From contig CM041778.1 in NCBI GenBank assembly GCA_023374045.1, positions 292,927,533 to 292,991,532 of the forward strand: a stretch of DNA of 64,000 bases, in the 5' to 3' direction. The position numbers were made by a program, and so were the translations under genes. The stretch comes from Limonium bicolor (Eukaryota; Streptophyta; Magnoliopsida; Caryophyllales; Plumbaginaceae). Positions 1,955-61,247 of this stretch are shown here, in pieces (within the stretch, counting starts at the first letter, position 1; every line of letters begins with the position of its first letter). The notes beneath the pieces were generated by a model. The model saw nothing but the letters and a program-made list of their open reading frames with translations, was not told the DNA's origin and searched no databases.

Positions 1955-3634
1955 ATGCCTTTTACCAGGTCAAACAGCCTCCCAAAAAATATTAATAATC
2001 ACACGGTTGGTTACAATCCAGAGATCGAGAGAACCTTTCTGCGCACTCTAAGGCAGAGACGTACTCAACAAAACATTACCACCACAGTGATAAAATCTGA
2101 CCCGGAAGCTGACATGGCATCTACACCAGCGACAGTTCAAAATATTAACAGGCCGTCTAACCAAGGACAACAACCTGCTATCATCCTTCCTCACCTTAGC
2201 CCATCCGAATACGATGAGTGGCAGAAGCTGAAGCCATATCATCAGATCAGATGTGTAAAGGAGCTGGGTATGTTTGATGGTTCCAGTCCAGACGAAGCCC
2301 TGTTACATGTTACAAAGTTCTTGCAACATGCCAACAGTCTTACTACGACCGACGCAGTACTTCAGTACGCAAGATTGTCATTATTCCCTCACAGCCTGAC
2401 GGGAAATGCGAGCAAGTGGTATCATAGCCTAACACCAAGTACCATTGGTACCTGGGATGACATGGCCACCAAGTTCTACGATAAATTCCTACCCCCGAGC
2501 CGAACATTGGAGATGATTGCTAAAATCTATAATTTCAAGCAACCTGGGTCGGAAAATATTTGTGAAACTTGGGATCGTTTCAAAGGTCTACTACTTACTT
2601 GTCCTCACCATGGTCTGACGAAAGAACAAGTATCACAATTGTTCTACAAAGGCTTGATCGGTCCGTGCAGAACAATGGTACTGTCCTCGTTAGGGGCTGA
2701 TATTCTGAAAAAGCCAGGAGCACAATTCCTGAATAGCATGGAGTCTCTCTGTGAAGAAATCAGAGACTGGGCCTCCGGTGGATCAAGGAGCGGTACTCCA
2801 GGTTTATATCATGTTGGGGAAAGTGATAACAAGTTTGACCAGCTGATGAAAAGCCATGAGCAACTCATGGAAAGCAATGCTCAGCAGGCAACAAAAGTCA
2901 GTACTCTGCAAAAAGTGGTTGAGCAGATGGCTATGAACTCCTACCCCCAGCAAGCTAAGTCGATGATTTCCCGATCATCTACAACCCCTCCAGGCTATGC
3001 GCCTCTGTCCCAATCATCTCCTGTTATTTCTTGTACACAATGTGGTGGGCCTCATGACTACGAACAATGCCCCTAGCTACAAGAATTAAAAGCAGCAGAG
3101 GAGGCAAACTACATCACCAACAGTTCAGGATACAGACAACCTTGGCAACGTAACATGCAATCTAACCTTCGCTACTCAAACACAGAAAATATCCAAAACC
3201 CACATACCCTTCAACCATCTCAAAATTATAGACCTCAGTCCAATTTCCAAGGAGGTCAAAGGCAATATCAACAACAGCCTTATGGCAATGAAGCTTCATC
3301 GAGTCGACCGACTCAACCTCCTTCGAATCCTGAGTCTGATATGTCTCAAATGCAAGAGATGTTTAAGGTGATGATGGGTAAATCCCGAGATACGCAAGAA
3401 GAGGTCGCAGCTCTTCGCAAAGACCAAATAGCCTTGCAATCTCAGATTCAACAGTTACTCACTCAACAAAGGCCACCTGGTCAATCCCTTCACAGACTAA
3501 CCCCAATCCAAAGAACAAGCGAATTCAATCCTTATAGACGATGGCACATTCCAATCAACAAACTTGTGTGCAGTCTCCTTAAGGAGTGGAAGGGAACTTG
3601 CCACCAGAAAAGGAAAAGAAAAAGAAAATCATGA
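1955..3634 (+). pseudogene. gag: Element A gag (capsid/nucleocapsid), broken by a stop and a frameshift
   Basis: The first 373 codons (1955-3076) encode an Athila-type Gag. The retrotransposon gag core lies around residues 130-230 with the pattern LSLFP-SLTG-A-KWYHSL and TWDDMATKFYDKF. A CTQCGGPHDYEQCP segment near the C-terminus resembles a degenerate zinc knuckle (CX2C...H...C). Translation stops at TAG 3074-3076, directly before a continuation in the same frame, so a CAG to TAG change is likely. The 3155-3634 stretch continues a Gln-rich Gag tail, then a frameshift near 3560 moves into the protease frame. Gag would form the cytoplasmic virus-like particle that packages the element RNA. Confidence 0.85.
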
Positions 3635-11160: not shown

Positions 11161-11404
11161 CTCCTACGGATAGTGTGCCTATCAACGAATTCTTCCCCGA
11201 CGGGACTGTCTTTTCAATCACCAAGGTACAGGAGCCATGGTATGCGGACCTGGCCAATTATTTAGTCTCTGGAAACAGTACCCTATGATCTATCTTACTC
11301 CCAGAAGAAGAAATTTCTTTCTGATTCAAGGCATTATTTCTGGGAGGATCCGTATTTGTTCCGAGTTAGTGCTGATGGGTTGATTCGACGATGTCTCCCG
11401 GAAG
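11161..11404 (+). pseudogene. Element A RNase H-integrase linker, frameshifted
   Basis: The open frame from 11001 ends at 11288 after [14 protein letters not shown]. Homology to the Athila linker ([24 protein letters not shown]) continues in another frame up to the integrase ORF, so one or more small indels separate RNase H from integrase. Confidence 0.7.
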
Positions 11405-12793
11405 ATGAGGTTTCAAGCGTCATACATTTTTTGTCACTCACGGGAAGCCGGAGGTCACCATGGACCCACAAGGACCGCTGCTAAGATCCTGGCCTCAGGA
11501 TTTTATTGGCCGACTCTTCACAAGGATGTTTACCAATTCTGCAAACAATGTGATAATTGTCAAAGAATGGGTAACACATCCAGGAGACATGAAATGCCAC
11601 AACAGGGAATACTAGAAGTGGAACTCTTTGATTGTTGGGGCATTGATTTTATGGGACCATTCCCTTCCTCACAGGGCCACCAATATGTTTTAGTGGCAGT
11701 GGATTACGTGTCGAAATGGGTAGAAGCCATACCCTGTCATCATGCTGATGCAAAGACAGTAACCAGATTCCTTAAGAAGCACATCTTTACGCGTTTTGGC
11801 GTGCCTAGAATTATTATCAGTGACGGAGGATCTCACTTCTGCAACCGTTCATTTGAAGCGCTTATGGGTAAGTACGGGGTACGTCACAAGGTAGCTTTAC
11901 CTTATCACCCCCAGACAAACGGCCAAGCAGAAGTTTCGAACCGTGAGTTAAAATGGATTCTCCAGAAGACGGTTAACTCATCACGAAAGGATTGGGCACT
12001 TAAAATGGATGATGCGCTTTGGGCTTACCGCACTGCATTCAAGACTCCCATCGGGATGTCTCCTTTTAAGCTTGTCTATGGGAAAGCATGCCACCTGCCT
12101 GTAGAGCTGGAGCATAAGGCATATTGGGCAATCAAGGCCTTAAACTTTGACGTGACTTCTCCAGGAGAGAAAAGGAAATTCCAACTTTCCGAGTTAGAAG
12201 AACTGAGAGATCAGGCTTACCAGAATGCTAAGATTTATAAGGAGCGCACCAAGAAGTTCCATGACCGGATGATCCTCAAGAGGGACTTCGAAATTGGTGA
12301 TTGGGTTCTCCTATATAACTCTAGATTAAGGATCTTCCCTGGGAAACTCAAGTCTCATTGGGCCGGCCCTTTCCAGATTGTTAGTGTGACTCCATACGGT
12401 GCCTTTGAACTCCAGAACAAACAAGGTGAAACTTTCAAGGTCAACGGGGCACGTCTTAAAAGGTATAATTCTCATTCTGATATTTCAACTGACCTATCTA
12501 CAATTAATCTTGTCCAAGAACAGCAGGACAACTCGCCCTCAAACTCTTCCAAACTAAAGCTTGGTCAAATACGTCTAGCTAGAGACGTTAAACCCGGCAG
12601 CTTGGTGGGAGGCAACCCACTATCTATCTTTTGTCTTTCCTTTAATTTAATGTTGTTTTCTTTTTGTATTATATTCCCTTTTATTTGTTATAAAATGCAG
12701 GTTTTACTGAGTTCTTCTGGCTGTGTAGATATTCTTACAGGTTCATTTCATGACATTCCACAGCTGCACTCAAGTGTGGGGGAGCTCTACTGA
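11405..12793 (+). CDS. Element A integrase, long open frame
   Basis: A 462-codon frame carrying almost complete integrase. The N-terminal zinc region has HHGPTRTAA and CKQCDNC (residues 46-52). The catalytic core shows Asp81 (GIDFMGPF), Asp140 ([10 protein letters not shown]) and Glu176 ([10 protein letters not shown]), with 35 residues between the second Asp and the Glu: the D,D35E triad is intact. A C-terminal DNA-binding region follows ([24 protein letters not shown]). The enzyme inserts cDNA into chromosomes. No chromodomain follows, as expected for Athila. The annotated start is simply the first Met after a frameshift. The last codons are non-conserved 3' region, and the stop TGA (12791-12793) is the first three bases of element B's LTR. 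Confidence 0.9.
12786..12790 (+). other. Target site duplication of element B, left copy
   Basis: TCTAC is repeated directly after element B at 27116-27120. A perfect 5-bp duplication shows B is a complete insertion into element A just downstream of its integrase. Confidence 0.96.
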
Positions 12794-15700
12794 AATACCC
12801 CGTAATTAAAAATAGTGATTAATTAGGCTAATAAGTAATTTAGAAGCTTAATTAAGTATAAATAATAGTAGGGAACAAATCCCGAAGAAAACGGATCCTT
12901 AAAATGGATTAAAATCACTAACGAATCTTAAAGCGCGTTTTTCGAGGTAACCAGGAAAACGTGTCTTTAAGCGGGTCAAATAGACTCGTAACAGTTTTGG
13001 TCAACTAAATAATCATTAATAAATATTAGTGAAGCTTTAGAACCAATAAAATCAATAAAACGAGATTAGTTGTCAAAAACGGGAAGTTGTGGGGTAGAAA
13101 CATAATTAACACAAACTTATGTGTCCACTTTTAAAATAAAAAGTAAAATTTGTGTGTGTGTGTGGGGTGCAGCCGATGGGCTCTATTTCCCCCTCTCTCT
13201 ACACACACTCTTTATTCCTCTCTTATTAATAAAGACAAAAACAATAAACTCACCTCACTTTATTACTCTCACACTCACTTTTGCAATTCTCTCTCCTACC
13301 CCTCACTCTCTTCTCACGTGAACACACCCCTCCTCACTCTCTCTTTTCTTCTTCCCCTACCTCATGCGATTTCCATGGTGGAAATAGAAACACCCACAAA
13401 CTTCTACTTCTCTCCTTTGTAACTCTCTCCAAACTCTTCCAAAAATTATAAAAATACTACCATTGTAATCCCCTCACCAAGAGCTACATTTTCATCTTTC
13501 CGAAATTCGAAACAACGATTTTCGTTTTCATGGGTATGTCCCATTTGGAGCTTCAACACCACCATTAGAAGGCCCTCCTTCTCCTTGTTCTTCTAAGGTA
13601 AAAACATTTCGAAAACTCCATCTTTTTCTAGCCTCAAAGGCAAAACGAAATTCATAAACTAAACCCTTGTTGTTCCTCTTGCTCTAGCTGATTTTGGCTT
13701 GTTGGTGAGTTGGAAATATTGTTCTTGAGCCACTCCAAGCTCCATTTGAACTCTTGGAAGGTAATAAATTTTCTAAACCCTAAAACCTAGATTGAAACTT
13801 GATTAATGGTTAGGGTTAGTTCTTAGTATTGAATGGTGTATATGAATGGTTGTAGTGTTAGAGGATTGGGATTTCAAAACCGGTAGAGAAGAAGAAGAAG
13901 AGAGAGGAGAAAGGAAATCTAGAAGAAAGCAAGGTAAGAATGCTCATTGTGTAGCCTTGTGTATATTGTATATGTAACAGATTTTAGAAGTAAAATATGT
14001 ATTGTAGAATGGTAATGCATTAGTAGTATAATGTGAGAGAGTGTAAGTATTTTGAAGCTTTAAAAGATATGTTAAAACTTGTTAAAACAGATTGGGAATT
14101 TAATGTTGAGTGCAGGAATTTTTGTGAGTGTTTTAGCATTATATTGGTATATGAGAGCTTGTATATGGTTGATGTTTATAAACAGGTGAGAATGAATGAA
14201 ATGTGATTAAACAATGTGGTGAGAGTATAAAATTATAGGGGAGGTTATGGCAAAATTTGCCTAGGATTAGAACACTTAGAGAATTAAAACTAGGTGACTA
14301 ATGTGAGTGTGTAACAGATTTTGTTTGAGATGGATAGGGGGTAAGTTGAGAGAGATAGTTAAGGTAGTTGTAATGCATTGGAGTGTTAGAAATGACATTA
14401 GGAGAGGGAGTTGTAGTGGGGAGAGTTAGAGAGAAATCTGTAGCATAATGTAATAAGGGGAGAAACTGTATAAGTGTTGGAGTGAAACTAGGAAAATTGT
14501 GTGTATAGTTAGTATAGATTGTGTGAATGAGGAAAGGATTAGCATGATTTAGAGTGTTTAAATTGTACAAAACATGTTAGGATTATGTAGGAAATTGGGG
14601 AAGCAATGGGTGAAATTGGGAAAGAAAAATAACATCTGTAGCAAGGTTCTGATTCCGTCCGACCCAGACGGTGAGTCGGACGTGGGTCGGACGGGGCTTA
14701 AGAAACGAAAACCAATCTTTCTGGAATGGTCCGACCCATAGCCGTGAGTCGGACGTGGGTCGGACATGGCTTAAATAACGAAATAAAACTTTCTGTAATG
14801 GTCCGACACAGCCGTGGATCGGACATGGTCGGACCGATGAAAATTTACAATGTCGAAGTTTCTGACTTCGTCCGACCCAGACGGTGAGTCGGACGTGGGT
14901 CGGACGGAGCTTAGACGACAGGACCAACCTTCTGGAATGGTCCGACCCAGAGAGTATGGGTCGGACGGAATAGTGCTGGGTCAGACAGGGTAATTTTCTG
15001 GGAACGAATCTTACTGGAATGGTCCGACCCAGGGCTTGGTCGGACGGTGGTCGGACGGTCCCTATACTACAAAAAAAAACAGTAAGCTTATAACTAGTAT
15101 ATATATGTATACCCACCTATACATATGTATATATAGTGTGTGTAAATTATGGACAAGTAATGGAAAGTAAGTAAAATGAAATATAAGTGTAAGGATGTAA
15201 GGCTTAGTGAATATGATTAGTAAAAACAAAAGTAGTTGAGTTAAGATTAATAATGGTAGATTAACCATTCATTGTATGCATATCATAGGATTTGATTTGT
15301 GACACCGGAAGGACGTTTGGAAACACGTACGACGGTGAACGGTATGGATTCCTCATGCCCCGTATGCTATCTTGGTTACTCTGATTTGTGTGTTGTGTGC
15401 TAATTGATCACCAAATAAGATAAATGCACGAATCGGAGTTAATATGCATACTTGTGAATATGTAGTGTTGTATGTTGTGATATTTTTTCTTAAATCTTAG
15501 TTTGTATAATTCATGAAATGTTTGGATGAATATGAATGTGTGTATGTATGGTGTATTGTACTGTGACCGAATGTGATGAGTTTGGACTTCTAACTTATTC
15601 CTAACAAGCTAACCATCCTAACTTAAAATGGTAATTAAATTGGAATGAGTAGAAGTCCGATATAGTTTCGGCCACGCGTGAGGATGCGGAGTCACGAGAG

Positions 15701-16670
15701 GTTGGCTCCAATTCCTGACTCTTAAACTGGTCCGCGGCCCAAATCCCTTAAGTGGGTAGCATCCCGGATTGGTGAGTCAAGTAAATCCCGGAGGTGGGAC
15801 GGTGTAGTCCCCAGGGCCGGAGGTCCCGACGACTTAACTTGAGTATAAGTAAGTAAGTAAGAATGAGTAAGTAAAGTAAATGAAAGTAAGTAATTGTAAG
15901 TAAGAAAAAGTAAGTAATGAGTAAAAGAGTAAAGCATTCCGATTAACCCGGATGCATAATTTGGCTAACCTTGTGAAGGTAAGTGAGATGTATGCTATGG
16001 TATTGTTGCCTTGATTGTGTAATGAAATGTATAGCATGTATGTTGTATGCAAAGCATGTATGTATGAAATAATGAACTGCATTTTAGTGGACGTCAAATA
16101 GTCGGCGTGCCCTAGCTAGCACGCGGTATATGCGGAGTCTATATGCAGCGTTTGCTGAGCCCCTTGGGGCACCATTTTTACTACACGCAGGTACCCGTGA
16201 AGGATGAAGACTAGGAGAGTTGAAGTTTAATTTCCTGCCTTTCTTTTGGTTTGTAAACAATGAATTTATGATGGGTGTACTAAGTAGTACATGGCTACAG
16301 TTTTGATAGCCGGTGTACCATGGGGTACACCTTTTTGGATTTTGGGAATAGAATGAGAATTGGTATAGATGAGTAGCCTTAGAAACTCATTCTTTTGGAA
16401 CTTGGAAATGATGTAATTTAATTACTTTAATACTCGGTGATCCAAGAATGTAAGTAGGTAATTTTGTATTCAGTATGCAATATATTAGTAGCTCGGTACG
16501 TTATGTTCATCAGACCGTGACTGTAAGTATTAGTAGCCTAGCTAGCCGTATGGGCGGTTAGCGGCATTGTTTCACCCGCCGTAGTAGGTATGTAATATTT
16601 CCGCTGCGAACTCGTAGGATTAACAGGACGATTAGACGGTAAGCATAGGATTAGCGGTTGGGGTGTTACA
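12791..16670 (+). repeat. Element B 5' LTR
   Basis: 3880 bp, matching 23219-27115 throughout. Begins TGAAATACCCC and ends GGGGTGTTACA next to the primer site. It holds a pyrimidine-rich stretch with (TG)n and TC-rich runs (13150-13430), an array of GTCGGAC words (14648-15058), a TAAG-rich stretch (15840-15930), and near the 3' end GCTGAGCCCCTTGGGGCACC (hairpin) followed by GCAGGTACC (about 16150-16195). Small reading frames across the array are an effect of the repeat and not genes. Confidence 0.95.
14648..15058 (+). repeat. GTCCGACCC / GTCGGAC inverted-word array in element B 5' LTR
   Basis: About six imperfect units of roughly 60-80 bp, each with TGGTCCGACCCAG, a GTCGGACGTGGGTCGGAC core and an AT-rich spacer such as TTTCTGGAATGG. 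Each unit holds GTCCGAC and its reverse complement GTCGGAC, so it can fold back or bind a symmetric factor. The same array is at 25088-25497. Confidence 0.8.
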
Positions 16671-16675
16671 AAAAG

Positions 16676-16687
16676 TGGTATCAGAGC
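16676..16687 (+). other. Element B primer binding site (initiator tRNA-Met)
   Basis: TGGTATCAGAGC lies five bases after the LTR end. It is complementary to the 3' end of plant initiator tRNA-Met, the usual chromovirus primer. The next bases (GTAGTTACGCTCTGATG) contain GCTCTGA, complementary to TCAGAGC, so a short hairpin over the PBS is possible. Confidence 0.9.
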
Positions 16688-17555
16688 GTAGTTACGCTCT
16701 GATGTCCATAGTACCGAGCATAGGGGATTACCGAGTTAGGATTTCAACCGTCTTAAGACGGATACTTAGAAACCTAACTAGGACTACCGTTGTTAACAAC
16801 GGATACCCTGACGTTCTTAGGAACGATACCTTGCTTTAAATTCAAGACCCTTAGGTCATATCTTGCAAAGCCTAATGTAACTGTTGAATATTCAGATGTC
16901 AGGAAGAGGTCCAGGTCGCCCTAGAGGAGGGGGCAATGACGGACCCGGCGCGCAGACGATAGCTGAGATCGTCGCCGCCACGGTAGCGCAGATGCTACCA
17001 CAGTAATCCAAGCTGTACAACAATCCAGCAAACCAACAAACTCAAGCGGGGCCAATCCCTCCCCCGCACCCAGAGAAGCGAACTGGGTAAAAGCTGTAGC
17101 GGAACTCCGCCCTCCCTGCTTTAGGGGCGAGAGTGATCCGGCTAAGCTCGAGGCCTACATCTCCGAGATGGAGACGGCTTTCGAAACACTCGAAGCTCCT
17201 GCTGGAGTTCGAGTCAGAGTAGCAGCCTACTACCTCAAAGATGCGCGATGGATTGGTGGAAGCTGGTCAAGCATGAGCACGTCAGCGACCCCACATTCGA
17301 CTGGGATTCCTTTGCATCACTCCTCCGTTCAAAATACTACCCTGAGCATGTGAAAACAAAGAAAAGGCTAGAGCTAGACGCCTTGAAGATGACAGACAAG
17401 ATGACTGTCGACGAGTACTACCGCACCTTTACCTCATACTCCGTCTCCTCCCTGATCTAGGATACACCGGCCAGGTGTTGGTCGATCGCTTCTATGGCGG
17501 TCTGAGCCATCGCCTTCGGTACGGTATGGGCTACACCAGATTTACCTCCCTTCAG

Positions 17556-17667
17556 GTAAATAACGGTTAACCCTTAGTATCATTTCAATTCCTTAAATTC
17601 CTTGAATTCTTTGAATCTTCTTTATTCCTCCTTAAATGAGAATCCCGGCTAATACCTGAGATTTCAG
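17556..17667 (+). other. Putative spliceosomal intron 1 in element B gag (112 bp)
   Basis: Donor CAG|GTAAAT, acceptor GATTTCAG|GAG, branch-like CTAAT at about 17649-17653, and a U-rich interior. It contains in-frame TAA stops. Removal is phase 0 and joins two conserved Gag segments (...FTSLQ and ECYHAAS...) without changing frame. Confidence 0.78.
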
Positions 17668-17944
17668 GAGTGTTATCACGCGGCTTCTCGCGTTGAGATC
17701 ACTTGCCAGTTAAGGGATGAAGAGACCGCGCTGAAGCGCAAAGCTAACAACAAAACACCAGCACTGAGGAGCAGAACCAGGGGAAGAGCTGGAAAAAGAA
17801 GAAAGGAATTTCTTTCAGCAATCCCAAAAGAAATCCCAGGGTGAGAGCAGTGCCCATGCTGAGCAGGGCAAACAGCTGAGCTTCTTCAGCTTGGTTATTC
17901 TGCACCGGTGGCAGCCAAGCCACTGAGATCACACCCACCTAAGG

Positions 17945-18027
17945 GTAAATTCCTAATCCAATTTGTATTCGTATAAGTATCATATCTAGTATATCCACGC
18001 ACACATGTGCTAACCCTCTAACCTCAG
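17945..18027 (+). other. Putative spliceosomal intron 2 in element B gag (83 bp)
   Basis: Donor AAGG|GTAAATTC, acceptor TAACCTCAG|GTT, branch-like GCTAACC at about 18009. Removal splits a glycine codon and restores PPKGSSSGVRQTFSDGRTY ahead of the zinc knuckles in one frame. Short but above the usual plant minimum of about 70 bp. Confidence 0.75.
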
Positions 18028-18365
18028 GTTCTAGCTCCGGTGTCCGCCAAACCTTCTCCGATGGCCGCACCTATGTGTGCAGAAAGTGCAACCAGGACCA
18101 TCCTGGTAAGGACTGTTAAGGAGAGAAATCAAATGCTATATTGCCATAAGCTTGGACACACAGCTAACAAGTGCCCAGAGAATGGGAAAGCCGAAGGGGA
18201 ACCTTCCAAAGCTACAAGCAGAGAGAGGGCAAGGAGGTGGCATCTGGCGATGCACCGGCCGCAGCACCACCAGGACAGGATCCCGGAGTCCTCGAGGGGC
18301 GCACCTCAAGGCAGCCTGTTCTTCATGTGATTGACCGTGATGGGTCCGGTTCTAAACCCGGCCCA

Positions 18366-18608
18366 GTAATATCTAAACCTTTAATCCTTGAAATAGCATG
18401 CCTAGTAGTAGAGTAACTGTATGAGTGAATGCATGAGTAAATAATTGAGTGTATATTAAGCATGAAATGAAGTAGTTGAAACTAGTACTCCGTAGATGAA
18501 ATTTGTAACCATAGGAAGCTTTAGTATCTTTACCCGATACCGGTAAACTTGAATCAAGAAGATCGACATCACCAACCCACTAACACTACAACCAACAAAT
18601 AGTGTCAG
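18366..18608 (+). other. Possible intron 3 joining element B Gag tail to the AlkB domain
   Basis: The Gag tail is open through ...GSGSKPGP and meets GTAATA at 18366. The AlkB homology starts exactly after TGTCAG ending at 18608. Phase-0 removal of these 243 bp would fuse KPGP to VIRPGMILL. The interior is AT-rich with many stops. The donor is weaker than those of introns 1 and 2, so this is a hypothesis. Confidence 0.5.
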
Positions 18609-19255
18609 GTCATCCGACCAGGTATGATCTTATTAAGGGATACCTGACACCCGAAGCGCAAATCTCAATCATTCGACGATGCAACGAGCTATGAACGGGT
18701 CAAGGTGGATTTTACACACCCGAATCCCCGGTGGAGCGAAGATGAAGCTGAAAATGATGTGCTTGGGAAAGGACTGGAATCCTTATACCAAGACATACCA
18801 GGAGACACGAACACAAGATGGAGCGACGCCACCGACAATACCACCATAGTTTCAGACACTCGTCACACAAGCAGTAGAACTTGCACAACAATGTGAACCT
18901 GAACCGATCCCCGCACTTGAAGCGGATCTCTGTATCGTCAACTTCTATGGAAAAGAAGGACGACTTGGGTTACCCAAGACAAGGACGAGACAGCGGAATC
19001 TCTTGAACAAGGAGTGCCCGTAGTGTCTTGGTCCATTGGTGATGACGCCGTATTCCTGTATAGCGAGCAGAAGCGTGTGGACCTCGCAGAAAAAATTGTA
19101 TTGAGATCAGGAGATGTCCTAATCATGGGTGGAAACTCTAGGATGCTGTATCACGGGATCAACAAGATCAAGTTGAATACGGCACCGCCGCCGCAATAAT
19201 CAATGCCACACACATGAAACCAGGACGCCTGAACCTTACCTTTAGAAAGTATTAA
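18609..19255 (+). pseudogene. AlkB-type 2-oxoglutarate/Fe(II) dioxygenase domain captured in element B
   Basis: About 215 codons in several frames match the AlkB-like oxygenase fold of plant AlkB homologues, in order: VIRPGMILL, GYLTPEAQISIIRRC, GQGGFYTP, KMKLKMMCLGKDWNPY, TRTQDGATPPTIPP, DLCIVNFYGKEGRLGL, QDKDE, VPVVSWSIGDDAVFLYSEQK, LRSGDVLIMGG, LYHGINKIKLNTAPP and the C-terminal signature RLNLTFR (AlkB RxNxTxR, 19226-19246) before KY and a TAA. Iron ligands: the HxD motif is at 18970-18980, where one missing base destroys the His; the Asp and the distal His (19152-19154) remain. Several one-base shifts and one TAG (about 18849) break it. Family members oxidatively remove methyl groups from DNA or RNA. 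It lies between the Gag knuckles and the protease. Confidence 0.85.
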
Positions 19256-19395
19256 ATTCCTAGTATCATGTAATCTGTTAGTAACGTGTATTAGAGACAC
19301 GGCATGTATGATGGTTGGTTTATCAATAAAGAGCAGTGTTGATTTATTCCACTTGTGTCCACCATCAATACTTATCCAATTGTGAATCCAATAGG

Positions 19396-19840
19396 TTTGG
19401 ACTCGGTACCGAAGGTAACCTGAGCATCCTCACCGAAGCACAAGCCGGCAAAGCGGCACCATCTAACGGGAACCTTCCCAGTAAATGGCATTGATGCCAA
19501 TGTGTTATTCGACTCCGGCGCCTCTCACACTTTTGTATCACCATCCTTCGAAGAGGTTGAAGCTAGATGCGGATGAGCTACCGAACTTCATGGTTACTCT
19601 CCCATCGAAGGAGCGAGTAAAGTGCACCAAATACTATCAATCAGCCACAATCCAAATCAAAGGCGAATCGTTTCCCATTCCTTTCATCGAATTCAATGGA
19701 TTGGGATTCGACGTAATCATTGGATGAATTGGTTGGAGCGGCACAAGGGTAGAATCCTCTGCGCCGAGCATCGTTTGCTGCTCAAGAGTCCTTCTGGGGT
19801 TACGTATCTTACCGCCAGAGACCGAGAGAGCCTTCGACCA
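19396..19840 (+). pseudogene. Element B aspartic protease
   Basis: The open stretch GTEGNLSILTEAQAGKAAP leads to a retropepsin domain with LFDSGASHTFVS (active-site DSGA, about 19507-19545) and FIEFNGLGFDVIIG (the usual LGMDWL block follows, here shifted). At least two frame shifts (near 19475 and 19545) break it. About 140 bp upstream (19256-19395) hold no recognisable coding sequence and follow the AlkB stop, so Pol may need its own splice or start signal. Confidence 0.82.
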
Positions 19841-21290
19841 CACTCATATCTGCCATGGCTATGTACCGGGAGCTCAGAAAGGGCCAAGAGGTGTATCTTT
19901 GTTTGTTACAAGACCTGGAGCGAGATCCAGAGTTCAGTGATGAAGTACCCATTGTATCCGAGTATCCCGATGTATTCCCTAAGGAGCTACCCGGCATGCC
20001 ACCACACCGAGAGCAGTGGAATTTCGAAATTGATCTATTGCCAGGTACCGGTCCCATTGCCAGGGCACCGTACCGCATGGCACCAGCAGAGATGACCGAA
20101 TTGAAAGAACAGTTAGAGACCTTCTAGACAAAGGGTTTATACGCCCGAGCGTATCACCCTGGGGAGCACCGGTCCTCTTCGTGAAGAAGAAGGACGGTAG
20201 TCTCCGACTATGCATTGACTACCGCGAGCTGAATGCGGTCACAGTCAAAATAAATACCCACTACCACGTATCGACGACCTATTCGACCAGTTGAAAGGAG
20301 CCTCAGTCTTCTCCAAGATCGACCTCCGTTCAGGGTATCATCAGATTGCAATCAAAGAACAAGACATTGAGAAACGGCATTCCGTACCAGATATGGCCAC
20401 TATGAATTCACAGTGATGCCATTCGGTTTGTCAAACGCACCGGCAAAATTCATGGACCTCATGAATCGACTATTCAGTGAGCAGTTGGACACTTCGGTTG
20501 TGGTCTTCATCGACGACATCCTTGTATATTCCAAATCACCAGAGGAACATGAAACCCACTTGAGGAAAGTGCTTGAGACACTGCGCGAGAACCAGCTATA
20601 TGCGAAGTTCTCCAAATGCGAGTTTTGGCTTGATCAGGTATCATTCCTTGGACATGTCATCTCGAGCGCAGGTATCTCGGGACCCTTCTAAGATAGAAGC
20701 TGTACGATCATGGCCTAGACCCAAGACTGTTACCGACATTAGGAGCTTTCTTGGTCTAGCCGGTTACTACCGGAGATTTGTAAGGGACTTCTCGAAAGTC
20801 GCTAAGCCCATGACTACACTGATGAAGAAAGATGCACCGTTTGTATGGACACACGAGTGCGAGCTATCATTTCAGAAACTGAAAGACTCATTGACCTCAG
20901 CGCCCGTCCTTACTCTTCCAGAGGGCACAGAGGGATTTGAGGTATACTGTGATGCATCAGGCAAAGGAATGGGATGCGTACTCATGCAGCATGGCAAGGT
21001 TGTGCTTATGCCTCCCGCCAGCTGAAAAAGCATGAGGAGAATTACCCGACTCACGACTTAGAGTTAGGAGCCATTGTCTTCGCCTTGAAGATATGGCGAC
21101 ACTATCTCTATGGGGTAAGCATCACCATCTACTCTACTCCGACCATAAGAGCTTACAGTATGTATTCACTCAGAAAGAACTCAACTTGAGACAGAGAGGT
21201 GGATGGAATTTCTTTCAGACTATGACATCAACTTGCAGTATAAGGAAGGGAAGGCAAACATTGTAGCCGACGCCCTGAGCCGTCGAGCAC
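19841..21290 (+). pseudogene. Element B reverse transcriptase and RNase H, frameshifted
   Basis: RT blocks in order: [47 protein letters not shown], then after a shift [51 protein letters not shown] and [13 protein letters not shown] (catalytic FIDD, about 20502-20520). The connection [13 protein letters not shown] follows, then RNase H with [40 protein letters not shown] and NLQYKEGKANIVADALSRR. At least five one-base shifts are needed to read through. All motifs expected of a chromovirus are present and otherwise well preserved. Confidence 0.88.
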
Positions 21291-22763
21291 ACTCGCTCCA
21301 TTCGCTACTCGCTTCTTCTAGCTTGGTTGACGAGGTGCGAGACGCTCAGTTGAGCGACCCTTACCTAACCGAAATCAGACACAAGATCGAGAATGGTACA
21401 TTTGAGAAGAAAAAGTATGATTTTAAGCTACATGAAGATGGTTTGATTCGGTTGAATGGCAGGCTATGCGTCCCCCGAAGCAATGCTGAGCTAAGGGATC
21501 GCATGCGAGAGTCACACTGTTCCACATTGTCAGTCCATCCGGGAGCCTCCAAGATGTACAAAGACATGAAGAGGTACTTCTGGTGGTCTGGAATGAAATC
21601 AGATGTGACAGAATTTGTATTGAGATGCTTGACATGCCAGAAGGTAAAATTTGAACACCGTAGACCGGGCGGAATGGTACAATCGATGCCAGTTCCGGAG
21701 TGGAAATTTCATGATATCTCCATGGATTTTGTTGTAGGACTCCCACCTGCTAGGGGAGGACTCAACATGATCTGGGTTGTAGTAGATCGCCTTACCAAGG
21801 TTGCCAGATTCATACCGATGAAGGAACCTGGAAGGTAGTAAAGCTAGCTGAGCTTTTCGATAAGGAGATTATCAGACACCACGGAGTCCCTAAGACTATA
21901 GTATCTGACCGCGACACCAGATTTCTTTCGAGATACTGGAGAGCTACAAGGGAAGCGTTGGGTACAGAATTGAAGTTGAGTACCGCCTTCCATCCTCAGA
22001 CCGACGGTCAGACAGAAAGGACCATCCAGACACTGGAGGACATGCTTCGGGCATGTGCCTTGGACTTTCAGGGGAGTTGGTTAGATAAGCTTCATCTTAT
22101 CGAGTTCTCGTATAATAATAGTTATCACGCCTCGATTAAGATGTCGCCTTTCCAAGCTCTATACGGTAGACCTTGCCGTACACCCTTGTGTTGGGATGAG
22201 TCAAGTGAAGCGGTCATAATAGGACCGGAGTATCTTGAGCAAGTACAAGCCGAAGTGCAACAATCCGAGCTAACATGAAGGCAGCCCAAGATAGACAGAA
22301 ATCCTATGCGGATGTGAGACGACGCGACCTTGAGTTCGCCGTGGGCGACCAAGTGTTCTTGCGAGTTTCACCTATGAAGGGTGTCTTCAGATTTGGTCAG
22401 AAGGGCAAGCTAAGCCCAAAGTTTGTAGGCCGTACACTATCACCGAAAGAGTTGGATCCGTAGCCTACAGGTTAGCACTACCTGAGGACTTGGGGCGTGT
22501 CCATGATGTATTTCATGTGTCACAACTCAAGAAGTATATTGCTGATCCTTCTCATGTGTTAGAGCCCGAGCACTTATCCATTGAGCCAAACATGCGATAT
22601 GTCGAAAACCCCAGTGAGAATCCTTGATAGGAAGACCAGAGACACTCGCCATAAGTCTATACGAATGGTGAAGGTCCTATGGTCAAACCATGATGTCGAA
22701 GAAGCGACATGGGAGTTGGAAGATGCCATGAAGGCTAAGTACCCACAACTGTTCATAGACTAG
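21291..22763 (+). pseudogene. Element B integrase with C-terminal chromodomain
   Basis: The zinc region has HPGASKMYKDMKRYFWW and CLTCQKVK. The catalytic core has Asp in SMDFVVGLP, Asp in VSDRDTRF and Glu in TDGQTERTIQTLE. The C-terminal part has DRQKSYADVRRRDLEF, GDQVFLRVSPMKGV and FHVSQLKKYIADPSHVLE. The protein ends with a chromodomain, VKVLWSNHDVEEATWELE then AMKAKYPQLF, stopping at 22761-22763. The chromodomain reads methylated histone H3 and guides insertion into heterochromatin. Frame breaks occur near 21835, 22275 and 22450-22620. Confidence 0.9.
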
Positions 22764-23218
22764 AGAGTCTAGTATTTAGTATACGGGTACGGGTCGTACC
22801 CCTTTTAAGGGGGGTAGAGCCCTTTTGCTTTTGCATTGCTTCGGGTAAGCATTGCTTAGTGTGTAGGTATTGTAACAGATTTTGTATGGCACATGTAGTG
22901 CAAGTGAATTAGTATGGATGTGTATGTATGTGTAATGTGTAATGAATGATGTGTATGTGCAAGTATGGTGTATTGGTGTAATGTGTATTGTGAATGGTAA
23001 TGGTGTATTGTGTATTGTGGTATGGTATGAATGGAAATGATGTATTGTGTATGTGAATTGTGTATGATGTTGAAATGTGTATGCTTGCAATGTGAAGAAG
23101 TAAACACCTCATAGGTGTAGTAAGACACATTATGCAATTGGTTTGCCTAATGAGTAAAGTTGCAATAAACTATTAACCTTGAGCAACTTTGAGGGCAAAG
23201 TTTCTTAAGGGGGTAGAT
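22764..23218 (+). other. Element B 3' untranslated region and polypurine tract
   Basis: Non-coding. It contains a palindromic CGGGTACGGGTCGTACCCC segment followed by TTTTAAGGGGGGTAGA (about 22785-22816), a long TGTRTA-rich low-complexity stretch (22860-23095), and the true polypurine tract AAGGGGGTAGAT (23207-23218) touching the 3' LTR. The earlier AAGGGGGGTAGA copy resembles a second polypurine tract. Confidence 0.8.
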
Positions 23219-26200
23219 TGAAATACCCCGTAATTAAAAATAGTGATTAATTAGGCTAATAAGTAATTTAGAGCTTAATTAAGTATAAATAATCATAGGG
23301 AACAAATCCCGAAGAAAACGGATCCTTAAAATGGATTAAAATCACTAACGAACCTTAAAGCGCGTTTTTCGAGGTAACCGGGAAAACGTGTCTTTAAGCG
23401 GGTCAAATAGACTCGTAACAGTTTTGGTCAACTAAATAATCATTAATAAATATTAGTGAAGCTTTAGAACCAATAAAATCAATAAAACGAGAGATTAGTA
23501 AAAACTGTCAAAAACGGGAAGTTGTGGGGTAGAAACATAAATAACACAAACTTATGTGTCCACTTTAAAATAAAAAGTAAATTTTGTGTGTGTGTGTGGT
23601 GTGCAGCCGATGGGCTCTATTTCCCCCTTCTCTCTCACACACTCTTTATTCCTCTCTTATTAATAAAAGACAAACAATAACACTCACCTCACTTTATTAC
23701 TCTCACTCTACACTCACTTTTGTAATTCTCTCTCCTACCCCTCACTCTCTTCTCACGTGAACACCCCCTCCTCACTCTCTCTTTTCTTTCTTCCCCTACC
23801 TCATGCGATTCCATGGTGGAAATAGAAACACCCACAACTTCTACTTCTCTCCTTTGTAACTCTCTCTAATCCAACTCTTCCAAAAATTATAAAATACTAC
23901 CATTGTAATCCCTCACCAAGAGCTACATTTTCATCTTTCCAAAATTCGAAAACAATGATTTTCGTTTTCATGGGTATGTCCCATTTGGAGCTTCAACACC
24001 ACCATTAGAAGGCCCTCCTTCTCCTTGTTCTTCTAAGGTAAAAACATTTCGAAACTCCATCTTTTTAGCTAGCCTCAAAGGCAAAACGAAATTCATAACT
24101 AACCCTTGTTGTTCCTCTTGTTCTAGCCGATTTTGGCTTGTTGGTGGAGTTGGAAATATTGTTCTTGAGCCACTCCAAGCTCCATTTGAACTCTTGGAAG
24201 GTAATAAATTTCTAAACCCTAAAACCTAGATTGAAACTTGATTAATGGTTAGGGTTAGTTCTTAGTATTGAATGGTGTATATGAATGGTTGTAGTGTTAG
24301 AGGATTGGGATTTCAAACCGGTAGAGAGAGAAGGAAGAAGGAAGAGGAAAGGAAATCTAGAAGGAAAGCAAGGTAAGAATGCTCATTGTGTAGCCTTGTG
24401 TATATTTGTATATGTAACAGATTTAGAAGTAAAAATATGTATTGTAGAATGGTAATGCATTAGTAGTATAATGTGTAGGAGAGTGTAAGTATTTGAAGCT
24501 TTAAAGATATGTTAAAACAGATTGGGAATTTAAGTTGAGTGTGCAGGAATTTTTGTGAGTGTTTTAGCATTGTATTGGTATGAGAGCTTGTATATGGTTG
24601 ATGTTATAAACAGGTGAGAATGAATGAAAATGTGATAAAACAATGTGGTGAGAGTATAAAATTATAGGGGAGGTTATGGCAAAATTTGCCTAGGATTAGA
24701 ACACTTAGAGAATTAAAACTAGGTGACTAATGTGAGTGTGTAACAGATTTTGTTTGAGATGGATAGGGGGTAAGTTGAGAGAGATAGTTAAGGTAGTTGT
24801 AATGCATTGGGAGTGTTAGAAATGACATTAGGAGAGGGAGTTGTAGTTGGGGAGAGTTAGAGGAGAATCTGTAGCATAATGTATAAGGGGAGAAAACTGT
24901 ATAAGTGTTGGAGTGAAACTAGGAAAATTGTGTGTATAAGTTAGTATAGGATTGTGTAATGAATTAGGAAGGAATTAGCATGATTTAGAGTGTTTAAATT
25001 GTACAAAAACATGTTAGGATGTATGTAGGGAATTGGGGAAGCAATGGGTGAATTGGGAAAAAAAATAAATCTGTAGCAAGGTTCTGATTCCGTCCGACCC
25101 AGACGGTGAGTCGGACGTGGGTCGGACGGGGCTTAAGAAACGAAAACCAATCTTTCTGGAATGGTCCGACCCAGAGCCGTGAGTCGGACGTGGGTCGGAC
25201 ATGGCTTAAATAACGAAATAAACTTTCTGTAATGGTCCGACCCACAGCCGTGGATCGGACATGGGTCGGACCGATGAAAATTACAATGTCGAAGTTTCTG
25301 ACTTCGTCCGACCCAGACGGTGAGTCGGACGTGGGTCGGACGGAGCTTAGACGACAGGACCAAACCTTCTGGAATGGTCCGACTCAGAGAGTATGGGTCG
25401 GACGGAATAGTGCTGGGTCAGACAGGTAATTTCTGGGAACGAATCTTACTGGAATGGTCCGACCCAGGGCTTGGGTCGGACGGTGGGTCGGACGGTCCTA
25501 TACTTACAAAAAAAAAACAGTAAGCTTATAACTAGTATATATATATATATATACCCACCTATACATATGTATATATATGTGTGTGTAAATTATGGACAAG
25601 TAATGGAAAGTAAGTAAATGAAATATAAGTGTAAGGAATGTAAAGGCTTAGTGAATATGGATTAGTAAAAAACAAAGTAGTTGAGTTAAGATTAATAATG
25701 GTAGATTAACCATTCAATTGTATGCATATCATAGGATTTGATTTGTGACACCGGAAGGACGTTTGGAACACGTACGACGGTGAACGGTATGGATTCCTCA
25801 TGCCCCGTATGCTATCTTGGTTACTCTGATTTGTGTGTTGTGTGCTAATTGATCACCAAATAAGATAAATGCACGAATCGGAGTTATATGCATACTTGTG
25901 AATATGTAGTGTTGTATGTTGTGAATATTTTTCTTAAATCTTAGTTTGTATAATTCATGAAATGTTTGGATGAATATGAATGTGTTATGTATGGTGTATT
26001 GTACTGTGACCGAATGTGATGTTTGGACTTCTAACTTATTCCTAACAAGCTAACCATCCTAACTTAAAATGGTAATTAAATTGGAATGAGTAGAAGTCCG
26101 ATATAGTTTCGGCCACGCGTGAGGATGCGGAGTCACGAGAGGTTGGCTCCAATTCCTGACTCTTAAACTGGTCCGCGGCCCAAATCCCTTAAGTGGGTAG

Positions 26201-27115
26201 CATCCCGGATTGGTGAGTCAAGTAAATCCCGGAGGTGGGACGGTGTAGTCCCCAGGGCCGGAGGTCCCGACGACTTAACTTGAGTATAAGTAAGTAAGTA
26301 AGAATGAGTAAGTAAAGTAAATGAAAGTAAGTAATTGTAAGTAAGAAAAGTAAGTAATGAGTAAAAGAGTAAAGCATTCCGATTAACCCGGATGCATAAT
26401 TTGGCTAACCTTGTGAAGGTAAGTGAGATGTATGCTATGGTATTGTTGCCTTGATTGTGTAATGAAATGTATCGCATGTATGTTGAATGCAAAGCATGTA
26501 TGTATGAAAATAATGAACTGCATGTTTAGTGGATGTCAAATAGTCGGCGTGCCCTAGCTAGCACGCGGTATATGCGGAGTCTATATGCAGCGTTTGCTGA
26601 GCCCCTTGGGGCACCATTTTTACTACACGCAGGTACCCGTGAAGGATGAAGACTAGGAGAGTTGAAGTTTAATTTCCTGTCTTTCTTTTCTTTTGGTTTG
26701 TAACAATGAATTATGATGGGTGTACTAAGTAGTACATGGCTACAGTTTGTGAATAGCCGGTGTACCATGGGGTACACCTTTTTGGATTTTGGGATAGAAT
26801 GAGAATTGGTATAGATGAGTAGCCTTAGAAACTCATTCTTTTGGAACTTGGAAATGATGTAATTTAATATACTTAATACTCGGTGATCCAAGAATGTAAG
26901 TAGGTAATTTTGTATTCAGTATGCAATATATTAGTAGCTCGGTACACTATGTTCATCAGACCGTGACTGTAAGTATTAGCAGCCTAGCTAGCCGTATGGG
27001 CGGTTAGCGGCATTGTTTCACCCGCCGTAGTAGGTAGTAATATTTCCGCTGCGAACTCGTAAGATTAACAGGACAATGAGACGGTAAGCATAGGATTAAC
27101 GGTTGGGGTGTTACA
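23219..27115 (+). repeat. Element B 3' LTR
   Basis: 3897 bp, same termini and internal layout as 12791-16670, including the GTCGGAC array (25088-25497), the TAAG-rich stretch (26280-26370) and the GCTGAGCCCC hairpin with GCAGGTACC (about 26595-26640). Differences from the 5' copy are scattered and many are one-base length changes in runs. Ends at GGGGTGTTACA followed by the TCTAC duplication. Confidence 0.95.
25088..25497 (+). repeat. GTCCGACCC / GTCGGAC array in element B 3' LTR
   Basis: Same array as 14648-15058, with slightly better preserved units. Each unit pairs TGGTCCGACCCAG with GTCGGACGTGGGTCGGAC. Confidence 0.8.
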
Positions 27116-27120
27116 TCTAC

Positions 27121-27961: not shown

Positions 27962-28127
27962 TGATAAGTGTCCAAATGAGCATGTTTTATAGGTGTATTT
28001 CATATATAATATTAGCACTTTTCTTGCTCATTTCTCCACTTCGGTTAGTTTTCCTCTAGTTTATGTTTTATTGTTATCTCACAAATTTATTGTTTAAACA
28101 TGAGGAAAACCAAGCTGGGAGTAAAGT

Positions 28128-30576: not shown

Positions 30577-32000
30577 AAAGTAGACGAAGAGACGAACGCA
30601 TGGACGCAAACGGCTCAGAAAACGGAGTCCAAACGAAGAATCTAGAGCCGGTCAAAGTTTGTAGAAGAAAATGAGTCACGCATAGACCACATGAGTCCGC
30701 ATGGGGGCTGGCCGGACAGCTAGGCGGACAGGACATGTGACCGGGCGGACGTGAGGCGGACGTGAGGCGGACACACTTGCAACCACCTGAAATGGGGCGG
30801 ACGTGAGGTGGACACACTTGCAAAAATGGGGCGTACGTGAGGCGGACGTGAGGCGGACGTGAGGCGGACACACTTGCAACCGCCTAGCTAGAGGCGGACG
30901 TGACTAAAAATCAACGCGCGCCAGTTTTCTCTTCTTCGCTCGTCGACTTCGCCGCCCGTCGACTTGCTTCCGCCTACCTTATTTTCCTCACGCGTCATCA
31001 GCTCTGTCCCCTGCAATTAATGAGCAATCAATGCTCTTCCACCTCTGTCTGCAATCGATCTTCTTCTTCCTCTCCTCTATAAAAAAGCCACTGCTACTTC
31101 ATCAAAAACTACTCACGCTCATATACGTTCCACCCCAAACTCAACACTCAAAATCTCTCATTCCATTTACAGAAATCCTACGTACTCGCTCCACTCTTCT
31201 TCCTCTTCATTTCTCCATACACCATTCACGCCTCCGTATTTTTATTACGTCCAACCTCTGTCTGACTATTACCAGTTAATATGTCAGGCTAAGGAGGATT
31301 TGCTCCGGGTGAAGGTTTAGCTTTAGTCTGTTTAATTATGTAATCAATATTTCTACCGGTTAAAATAAATACAGTTTGTTACGTTTAAAGTTTATCACTC
31401 ACCATTTTAATAAATTACATGATTTATTAAAATGCTTTCCAAGTCTATTTTGATCAGACCGGTGATAAATAGACAGGTTAATTAAGCCGTAAATCTGGAG
31501 AAAGCTTATTATGATTTATAGGTTAGTATTTTCAGATGCAATTATAATTCCTCGAATTTAACGTCCGTTTACATAAGTATTGCTCGAACCTTGATTAGAC
31601 CGAGCATTTTCTGGTAAACGAGTTCTTATGAGTCTATGACTTAGTCCTTAAGATAATAACAGGAATTTTGCCAAACTAATATATTAAACCGGTAGAGATA
31701 GCATAATTAATCAGATTATATAAATCTGAACCGGAGTTCCATTTAATTCATCTGCACTCAGTTATCTTTTCTGCTATTTAAATTCTCTAAAACAAGTCAA
31801 TTAACTTCCCCCCTTTTTGTGACAAGCTTAGGAACTATTTTATCTCGCTATAAGTCCCACGGTTTGACCCCGGCCGCTTCTGTTTTACTATACTACTGCG
31901 ACCGGGTTTTATTTGCAGCCCGACAGATATTTTGAGTTTTAATTTCTTTTCTTTTATTAATTACACCAGTTCTAACAACTCACGATATAACCATTCTGCA

Positions 32001-54534: not shown

Positions 54535-55905
54535 TGTTGGAACAACAATTCCATGACAACACCAACTAAAACTTGGAGCTTAGGCACTATAACCACACAG
54601 ACACTACTTCACCCAAGCCCGTTATAGGCCCTGACCTCCACACAAACATTTCTAGGCCCGTCATAGGCCCTAACCTCCACACAAACATTACAAGCTCATC
54701 ATAATCCCTTACCACCACTCAAAAAGCCTTACAACAAACACCACACACTCCCACCAGTGGCATGTTCATCTTCTGAGAAACAAATTATAGATATGAAATT
54801 CTTAGTCAGGAAATGATAATTTCATTTTCCTTTTTCAGTAGATAGAATTTTTCTCAATCATTACCATGTTTGGCACATTTTTAACAATTTCCTGCTTTGG
54901 ACAATTTTTGATCCTTACTAGCACTTTGATTTCATTTTACACTTTCTACATACACCACATAGTCACGTTTGGCATTTTCACAATCGGTTTTCATCACAAT
55001 CATTTGCATCAGACCATTATCATTGCATAATCCAAGTTAGAATGGATCTCACTCCCAAACCTCAGGTACCCATAAGTCCTGCCTTACATTCATTCACCTC
55101 AGGCACCCATAAGTCCTACCTTACATTCACTCACCTTAGGCACACATAAGTCCTAACACCACAAAAACATGTCAAACACGTATAAGCCCTACCCTGCACC
55201 TATCTTACCTTTCATTCATTCCACCTTACATTCATTCACCTTAGGCACACATAAGCCCTACCACACACATTGCATTGATATACAAATACACCGCATCAAT
55301 CTCATTACATATCACACCTCCTTTCATTCACTTTTAGGTTCCCGACACCTAAGATGCTCGGCGTATTTCTTTTAGGTTCCCGACACCTTAGATGCTCTGA
55401 GGAGTTGGCGGGGCAGTGGCAATAAGTCCCCTATCTTTGTGTCATCTCATTAGGGAGCAACAACTAGTAGGTAGTGGTAATAAGTCCCCTTGGTAGTCTA
55501 GAAGTTATCCCTGCACCCAGTTGGTGGGCAGTGGCAATAAGTCCCCATAGTATACCAACCAGGAGCAATAGGTTCCCGACATCTCCATGCTCAGCGTAGT
55601 TTATCCATTTTAGGTTCCCGACACCTCCATGCTCGGCGTAGCTTATCCACTTTAGATTCCCGACACCTCTATGCTCGGCGTAGTTTATCCACTTTAGGTT
55701 CCCGACACCTCATGCTCGGTGTATTTTATCCATTTTAGGTTCCCAACACCTCTATGCTCGGCATAGTTTATCCACTTTAGGTTTCCGACACCTTCATGCT
55801 CGGCGTAGTTTATCCACTTTATATTACCGACACCTCCATGCTTGGCGTAGTTTATCCACTTTAGGTTCCCGACACCTCCACGTTCGGCGTAGTTTATTCG
55901 TTTTA
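54535..55905 (+). repeat. Element E 3' LTR, first part, rich in tandem repeats
   Basis: Begins TGTTGGAACAACAATTCC after a polypurine tract. Contains three kinds of tandem repeat: units with CCATAAGTCCTACCTTACATT (55060-55260), three units with AGTGGCAATAAGTCCCC (55415-55550), and eight 42-bp units (55570-55905). The rest is non-coding. Element D inserted at 55905/55906, so the remainder lies right of the window. Confidence 0.55.
55570..55905 (+). repeat. 42-bp tandem repeat, eight copies
   Basis: Units start at about 55570, 55612, 55654, 55696, 55737, 55779, 55821 and 55863, each AGGTTCCCGACACCTCC then ATGCTCGGCGTAGTTTATCC and a short T-rich end. Two more diverged copies are at about 55336 and 55373. 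Copies differ by one or two bases and one is 41 bp. Confidence 0.9.
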
Positions 55906-59699: not shown

Positions 59700-61247
59700 T
59701 GTATGGTATGAAACGTATATTGCAGCAAGTGTACTGGTCTGTCGTAGCAAGTTTTCCTAGGTAGTATTCTCTAGGTTATCGAACCAAAGGAGGTTGTGTC
59801 TGGTTTAATCTCTACCCTAATCTAGCAAATAAATTATAGAAAAATAACAATAATAAATTGGGGGTTTGAAAGCAGAAATTAAATGATTAAGCAAACTGAA
59901 AACAAATAAAAGTGATTATCTAATAAATCTAAAAAGTGAATCCTGGTTTACTACTTATTCCTAGTTTATCAATTCCCTTCCTGAGTGTTTTCTAAATTCT
60001 AGATTGCAACCTCAAATCTAAATTAATCTAAAACCGGTCTCCCACAAGATAGATTCTTACTAGCAACTCCCAAATCCTAACTCTCGTTACGAATTTACAA
60101 ATTAACTAGTAGCATTAACGGTTCATCTGGTTTCTAGTCAGCTAATCCCCAGGAATTGTCATTTGTAGTTTCACTGGTAATATTCCTAAGGTCTAATGAA
60201 CGCCGCAGTTCTCACTTGTAAGCAATTCATACCAAATAAACTCAAGTAATAATTAATCATAAGTGAATTTAATAAATAGCAAGGAATAAAACTACAATCT
60301 GAATAGAATTTATATTTAACAACTCAGGAAGCAAAATAATAAACTAGTTGTCCATAGTAAACCAGAATTCTAACAACTACTCGGACATCGGAGACAAAAA
60401 ATAATAACAATGTTAAAGAGATTAGAAAACATCATCTAATTAAAGAACGATGATGAATCCGGTCTCTGTCTTCTGCTCTGGTCTGTCAAAACTGACTAAT
60501 AGTTTCCCTCTGTTGGACTTGGTGTGCTGCACGGCTCTCGAACGACGGCTAGGGTTGAAAATTGTTTTGTATCGTACTGTCATGTCTCTGTTGCGAGAAT
60601 ATCCATATGCTTTTAAAAGAAACTCCTTACGTATATCTCTACATGGCTATTTTCTTTTCATTTATTGCAGTCCTCTGTACGAATTCAAAAGCCCACCTCT
60701 CTCCATATGTCAAATCGAAGACTTCCAAATGTGCATGGCTATATTGTATCATGTGTATGTTGTTGCTCCAGCCCATGTGCTGCCATGCATCTCCAACTTC
60801 ACGTGTGAATAAGTAATTAAAGCAGCCCACCAACATGATGTCACGACCCAAAAGAAATATAGATTAATGATGATGATATGTAACATCATGTACCGCTTGA
60901 ACATTTAGAAACAATTCTTCATGTCGGCCTAGAACTAAACAATGCAGCCCGCGAGTTGAATAGTCTGGTCCGAGTTTGCAAACCAATACATAAATCTGGA
61001 CTATGTTGTAAATTAAGCAGAATGTCAGTTTTTCTTCTGTTTGGTCCCATTTTGATCGTGAAGCTTTTGATATATGTTTTTAGACATTTTCTTCAGCGTT
61101 TTTAACCTGTTTTAGCATAAAACCACATGTGAGGAGTAATTTTAACATTTAACATAATTAAGCACTTAAGTGGGGAAATATATAATATTATAGCTTAAAA
61201 TAATAAACAATAAAGTATATAAATATAGATAAATTCCCCACTTATCA
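59700..61247 (-). repeat. S4: solo Athila-like LTR inside element D RNase H
   Basis: 1548 bp; on its own strand it starts TGATAAGTGGGG and ends ACCATACA. The right flank is ACCTC (61248-61252); the left is ACTC (59696-59699), the same 5 bp with one base lost. Removing it rejoins the RNase H strand GFEV to FCD. The TGATAAGTG start groups it with LTRs of A and LTR4. No gene is supported inside: the 120-codon plus frame at 60450-60812 has no recognisable domain. Confidence 0.88.

Follow-up and report, generated by a model that had tools for sequence, protein, structure and literature searches.

A broken ALKBH1-type dioxygenase domain between Gag and protease in a chromodomain LTR retrotransposon

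RESULTS

A complete LTR retrotransposon with a chromodomain

The window, the whole 64,000-nt stretch of Limonium bicolor DNA analyzed here, contains a complete LTR retrotransposon of 14.3 kb (12791 to 27115), with the target-site duplication TCTAC on both sides (12786 to 12790 and 27116 to 27120). All of its parts lie on the forward strand. The 5′ LTR (12791 to 16670, 3880 nt) was compared with the 3′ LTR (23219 to 27115, 3897 nt). Paired LTRs and target duplication are accompanied by a primer binding site, TGGTATCAGAGC (16676 to 16687), and a polypurine-tract-like stretch (23207 to 23218), both read from the sequence by eye, as is typical of an LTR retrotransposon. We take the primer binding site to be of the initiator-tRNA-Met type. 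An ARAGORN scan found no tRNA; a scan for bacterial promoters and terminators has no bearing on a plant element.

Pfam families follow one another in the order gag, AlkB, protease, reverse transcriptase (RT), RNase H, integrase zinc domain, integrase SH3, and chromodomain. The broken RT and RNase H region (20243 to 21194) was recognized by PF00078 (81.7 bits for 20371 to 20688) and RNase H families. The integrase region (21497 to 22751) has an H2C2 domain (PF17921), a partial core (PF00665, below the cut-off), an SH3 domain (PF24626), and a chromodomain at its end, which places the element among the chromoviruses. The chromodomain scored 27.4 bits against a PF00385 cut-off of 25.1 when its piece was scanned alone and 18.6 bits, below the cut-off, inside a 6-kb raw frame. 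The element presumably resembles plant chromoviruses of the Tekay/Del type, with which it shares the PR-RT-RH-INT-chromodomain order, the TGGTATCAGAGC primer site, and long LTRs. Its pol is 61% identical to that of P0007, an unbroken polyprotein of 1506 aa, and 62% identical to that of P0006.

A near-whole ALKBH1-type domain in three reading frames

AlkB enzymes strip methyl groups off nucleic acids. The first-pass annotation had placed an AlkB domain of plant type inside a chromovirus, between Gag and protease, and our sequence comparisons confirm a near-whole AlkB/ALKBH1 domain at 18609 to 19255 (forward strand), spread over three reading frames and running to its own stop codon. The blocks, each searched in its own frame, fall inside the AlkB family. 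A 92-aa piece (18921 to 19196) matched PF13532 with 62.6 bits against a curated cut-off of 31.2 (E = 7.6e-17), and a single raw frame (18655 to 18972) also exceeded the cut-off with 35.7 bits; four shorter pieces scanned singly gave 16.4 bits or no match.

Among solved structures, the best match was the 231-aa chain 5XEG (rice ALKBH1 in PMC8118384), which is collinear with the locus over residues 15 to 230. Residues 138 to 210 (E = 8.9e-22) and 48 to 155 (E = 2.1e-19) matched most strongly; residues 15 to 46 and 216 to 230 were also matched (sequence E = 6.2e-6), the latter stretch of 15 residues being weak alone (5.5 bits). The four matches are in order and require three frame changes. A frame-tolerant alignment to the rice ALKBH1 residues covers 18629 to 19249 of the catalytic domain and shows identity at 108 of 199 aligned residues, three frame breaks, and two in-frame stops. 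Its score of 511 compares with −34 to −76 for eight shuffles of the same DNA, which rules out a chance match. Unlike the rice host gene, this sequence is disrupted and lies within a retrotransposon. The alignment retains NFY, the Asp of HxD, the distal His, and RLNLTFR, so that within the Fe(II)/2-oxoglutarate set, the Asp, the distal His, the Asn, and both Arg of RxNxxxR are present, and the first His is hit by a frame break. The Asp and the distal His, RLNLTFR, and the break at the His of HxD had been picked out by the first-pass annotation.

The matches listed point to the ALKBH1 subfamily. When an AlkB piece was searched against structures, rice ALKBH1 scored 79.9 bits, chains named AlkB ∼40 to 42 bits, and chains named ALKBH1 ∼30 to 31 bits; the 23 listed sequences (E of up to 1) included no chain named ALKBH2, ALKBH3, ALKBH5, ALKBH8, or FTO, and the remaining entries were two aldose reductases at E of about 1. 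The assignment to ALKBH1 over these other subfamilies thus follows the listed matches rather than a tree. Protein searches with the AlkB piece returned two bacterial-looking matches, P0001 and P0002, among 48 candidates and no match among 113 candidates in a second search; such searches depend on exact word matches, and their listed entries included no plant AlkB at all, so they have no bearing on absence. In a collection of viral contigs, two contigs matched AlkB at 40% over 52 residues, and RT and INT pieces found no relatives there. At 58 positions, the rice enzyme and P0001 agree; the AlkB pieces share the common residue at 47 of these and agree with rice at 51 of 110 other positions. On this comparison, the 47/58 agreement appears lower than expected of a well-kept enzyme. 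A second AlkB copy elsewhere in the window was sought by tblastn of the pieces and rejected, the best other match having E = 0.18.

AlkB lies in an extra segment of the knuckle-protease linker

P0007 aligns collinearly with the element and lacks three stretches found here, two gaps in gag and the AlkB segment. A broken gag exon 1 (16896 to 17555) holds the capsid (PF03732, 31.5 bits at ∼17245 to 17445), and residues 20 to 191 of P0007 match 17036 to 17555 in three pieces. The match stops at 17555, where residue 191 lies directly 5′ of a GT, and gap 1 (17556 to 17667) runs from this GT to an AG. Gag exon 2 follows (17668 to 17944), weakly matched, with identity to P0007 at 18 of 63 aligned codons. 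Gap 2 (17945 to 18027) is again bounded by GT and AG, and the match resumes at 18024, with residue 259 beside the AG at 18027. Gag exon 3 (18028 to 18365) carries the zinc knuckles and linker, and residues 259 to 306 match 18024 to 18174. Apart from a 12-residue match, the gag matches to P0007 are weak (30 to 44% identity), so the gap ends are good to a few bases. On this alignment, gag appears to have two intron-like gaps.

Residues 306 and 357 of P0007 fall at 18174 and 19403, leaving 50 residues between the points that in the element flank an extra 1029-nt segment with GT...AG ends (18366 to 19394). The comparison with P0007 shows AlkB sitting in ∼1 kb of apparently extra DNA in the linker between knuckles and protease. 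An AATAAA (19325 to 19330), 70 nt 3′ of the AlkB stop, is a possible poly(A) signal; by a rough estimate, a stretch of such makeup would contain one by chance in ∼1 of 10 cases. The broken protease region (19395 to 19813) matches P0007 over 19403 to 19813 and RVP_2 at ∼19460 to 19549 (30.9 bits) and ∼19554 to 19724 (17.5 bits, below the cut-off). The extra segment does not have the look of a later retrocopy insertion: no exact direct repeat of ≥8 nt is common to its two flanks, and the sequence after it has no A-run longer than 3 nt. Splicing from a putative donor at 18366 to an acceptor at 18608 would join Gag to AlkB in phase, in the frame that is open just 5′ of the donor (chance, 1 in 3). 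Splicing from that donor to the protease acceptor at 19394 would not keep the frame in the present copy, a mismatch that decay may explain.

A search with the integrase piece, restricted to proteins of ∼1100 to 3500 aa, found 359 related polyproteins, of which 120 were listed. Among these 120, all entries named by organism are from plants, PF13532 is absent, and two AlkB motif patterns do not occur.

Decay of AlkB compared with pol and gag

The two LTRs differ by 128 substitutions in 3836 aligned columns and by 62 counted indels, 43 of them 1 nt long and one an edge effect of the flank. Transitions and transversions number 69 and 59, a low transition bias that, with the high share of one-base indels, reflects either odd decay or assembly noise. 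As a yardstick for AlkB decay, the LTR indel rate predicts ∼5 frame-shifting indels in AlkB and ∼27 in pol, compared with 14 to 15 in pol. Because this arithmetic overpredicts the breaks in pol, we rejected it and used pol as the yardstick.

Against P0007, pol has 14 breaks and 1 stop in 1105 aligned codons; against P0006, it has 15 breaks and 0 stops in 1101. The 199 codons of AlkB contain 3 breaks, compared with 2.5 expected at the pol rate (P = 0.46), and 2 stops, compared with 0.18 expected (Poisson P = 0.014; Fisher P = 0.06). Together, the 5 disablements compare with 2.7 expected (Poisson P = 0.14; Fisher P = 0.21); stretches of pol of equal length (621 nt) always contain fewer than 5. 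Three gag pieces, in weaker alignments, carry 5 breaks and 1 stop in 279 codons, near the AlkB density, with half of these disablements in the 46-codon third piece. The first-pass description of the decay as mostly one-base shifts thus misses the two in-frame stops that accompany the three frame breaks.

A path based on codon usage recovered 3 breaks and 1 stop in AlkB and 12 breaks and 1 stop in pol. Its score is slightly negative for AlkB (−6.9), positive for the gag exons and pol, and clearly not coding-like just upstream of AlkB, at 18340 to 18600. The negative AlkB codon usage fits a host-derived or relaxed sequence, and the stop excess and the density of disablements in AlkB hint at prior relaxation. 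On these data, AlkB may have been intact at the last transposition or already relaxed.

DISCUSSION

A recruited AlkB, a passenger, or a later arrival

The reading that we favor, at about even odds, is that this is a decayed copy of a plant chromodomain Ty3/gypsy element in whose lineage an ALKBH1-type dioxygenase of plant origin was taken up, came to lie between the Gag nucleocapsid and protease, and was probably expressed by splice choice. The ALKBH1-type sequence would have been captured from a spliced host mRNA, a route that we prefer because the rice alignment has no intron-sized gap; host ALKBH1-type genes have introns. Transcripts from which the 1-kb segment is spliced out would then give Gag-Pol, and transcripts in which AlkB serves as an alternative last exon would give Gag-AlkB, ending at the stop codon of AlkB itself. 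Tethered to Gag, AlkB would be placed on the RNA or cDNA of the element, and the predicted enzyme may remove N6-methyl marks that would otherwise hinder translation, packaging, or reverse transcription. The sequence itself shows the domain, its position, the LTRs, and the target duplication; that AlkB came from an mRNA, that splicing selects the product, and that the enzyme is active and of benefit are steps that we infer.

Several observations favor a recruited AlkB: the identity of the domain within a complete element with its target duplication; an extra segment that maps to the knuckle-protease linker of an unbroken relative, and intron-like gaps with ends that agree with that alignment; a donor and an acceptor that would join Gag to AlkB in phase; the lack of the usual marks of a later retrocopy; AlkB frame breaks that match pol, with a disablement total (5/199) that resembles gag (6/279); and the demethylase activity reported for plant ALKBH1-type enzymes. 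It is weakened by the single copy in view, the stop excess, the 47/58 agreement, the negative AlkB codon usage, the non-coding-like 18340 to 18600, the phase mismatch between 18366 and 19394, and the lack of PF13532 in all 120 listed relatives of 359.

The excess of two stops, the single copy in view, and the listed relatives without PF13532 (0 of 120, from 359) would also suit a passenger, that is, a fragment of a host ALKBH1 transcript taken up by one or a few copies through template switching and carried without function. Host genes captured by LTR elements are reported to be numerous, above all in sorghum (PMC7264820). We consider such a passenger a real possibility, somewhat short of an even chance: the AlkB frame breaks are no denser than those of pol, AlkB reaches its natural stop on the same strand and lies in a linker rather than inside a domain, and the catalytic residues are kept except for the broken His. 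The absence of the domain from the 120 listed relatives (of 359), and of the segment from P0007, could also mean that a retrocopy or fragment of an ALKBH1 gene arrived only after the element had inserted and died. This is quite improbable, however, given the placement between coding exons with splice-like ends and flanks with neither an exact repeat of ≥8 nt nor a poly(A) run.

Some plant RNA viruses carry AlkB domains (PMC9289625), and a viral rather than host source for the block is conceivable; the match of the rice host enzyme along the whole domain (108/199) makes it the least credible of the origins considered. A further explanation, compatible with any of the others, is that some frame breaks stem from errors in the assembly, so that the real element is less damaged than the sequence suggests. 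The LTR pair, in which 62 indels were counted (43 of them single-base) against 128 substitutions, with a 69:59 ratio of transitions to transversions, would agree with this, and such an indel share is higher than we would expect of plant LTR decay. We nevertheless think assembly error unlikely, since a uniform error rate of that size would presumably break the long open frames elsewhere in the window, such as the 541-aa frame with protease and RT at 61166 to 62791.

Relation to known AlkB-bearing and spliced retrotransposons

The first-pass annotation left open whether this lineage had been described. AlkB-bearing Gypsy elements as such have been: those of Phalaenopsis carry an AlkB open reading frame (ORF) and are described as the sister group of Ogre in the Tat lineage; they have a dual RNase H, a primer site for tRNA-Arg, and an ALKBH5-type domain in a separate ORF2, whose product (paALKBH5-like) was an active m6A demethylase in vitro (PMC9289625). 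One of them, Gypsy_Pa_2799, is 25.5 kb long with 6.4-kb LTRs and a 565-aa ORF, and the family makes up 8.6% of the P. aphrodite assembly (PMC9289625). It resembles our element in being a plant Ty3/gypsy LTR element with an added AlkB-type 2-oxoglutarate dioxygenase domain. In contrast, our element has a chromodomain, a length of 14.3 kb, LTRs of 3.9 kb, a different primer site, and an ALKBH1-type match between Gag and protease, in one broken copy, and so does not belong with the orchid elements. By these sequence features, it is distinct from the orchid precedent in lineage, AlkB subfamily, and position, and looks like a capture independent of that one.

As reported in PMC9289625, a screen of 121 angiosperm genomes for AlkB domains within 5 kb of RT found them only in Phalaenopsis, and this result held without the filter on consensus number; each consensus needed at least 5 sequences. 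The AlkB block here is <2 kb from RT, so an abundant family would be expected to show in that screen if the host was included. A literature search covering titles and the openings of abstracts, with few subscription papers and no preprints, returned no AlkB-bearing plant retrotransposon beyond PMC9289625 and a review that cites it (PMC12786077). Splice choice that sets a product ratio is reported for Ogre (PMC6317226), where, unlike here, a partly spliced intron in the polyprotein region separates GAG-PROT from RT-RH-INT and was shown by experiment; the putative introns of our element lie in gag and before the protease.

Methylation erasers and plant retroelements

Plant ALKBH1-type demethylase activity has been reported on 6mA of unpaired DNA, and 6mA rises in R-loops of a rice mutant (PMC10469495); Nicotiana ALKBH1L is a reported m6A demethylase (PMC12736721). 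In plants, LTR-element RNA marked with m6A reportedly stays in stress granules, and the host eraser ALKBH9B frees ONSEN RNA from them (PMC12786077). We think it possible, if rather doubtful, that an ALKBH1-type eraser became fixed as an alternative last exon in a chromovirus lineage, with splicing or intronic polyadenylation setting the ratio of Gag-Pol to Gag-AlkB and the eraser entering the particle. If so, plant retrotransposons would have recruited an AlkB eraser at least twice, independently, here from a subfamily with reported activity on both DNA and RNA.

Should the ORF prove to be kept in other copies, AlkB erasers of two different subfamilies would have been recruited by unrelated lineages of plant retrotransposons. 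Such convergence would argue more strongly than one case can for a restraint of plant retroelements by adenine methylation, and it would make it possible to test whether the relevant mark lies on RNA, as in the ONSEN work that PMC12786077 cites, or on cDNA.

Repeats within and around the element

Both LTRs contain ∼4 copies of a 70-bp tandem repeat beginning GTCCGACCCAG (14657 to 14951 and 25092 to 25389). Outside the element, repeats at 14 to 1565 match 27964 to 28098 and 30577 to 32000 at 96 to 99%. A gag at 1955 to 3073 and an integrase at 11384 to 12790 also flank it, and the integrase frame ends at the insertion point. The flanking repeats and this interrupted frame suggest that the AlkB element is nested in an older Gypsy element (1 to 32000). 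Farther along the window, a 42-bp unit forms a tandem array of ∼8 copies (55569 to 55905), and another Gypsy element lies on the reverse strand (61166 to 63922), with a long open frame for protease and RT and a gag upstream.
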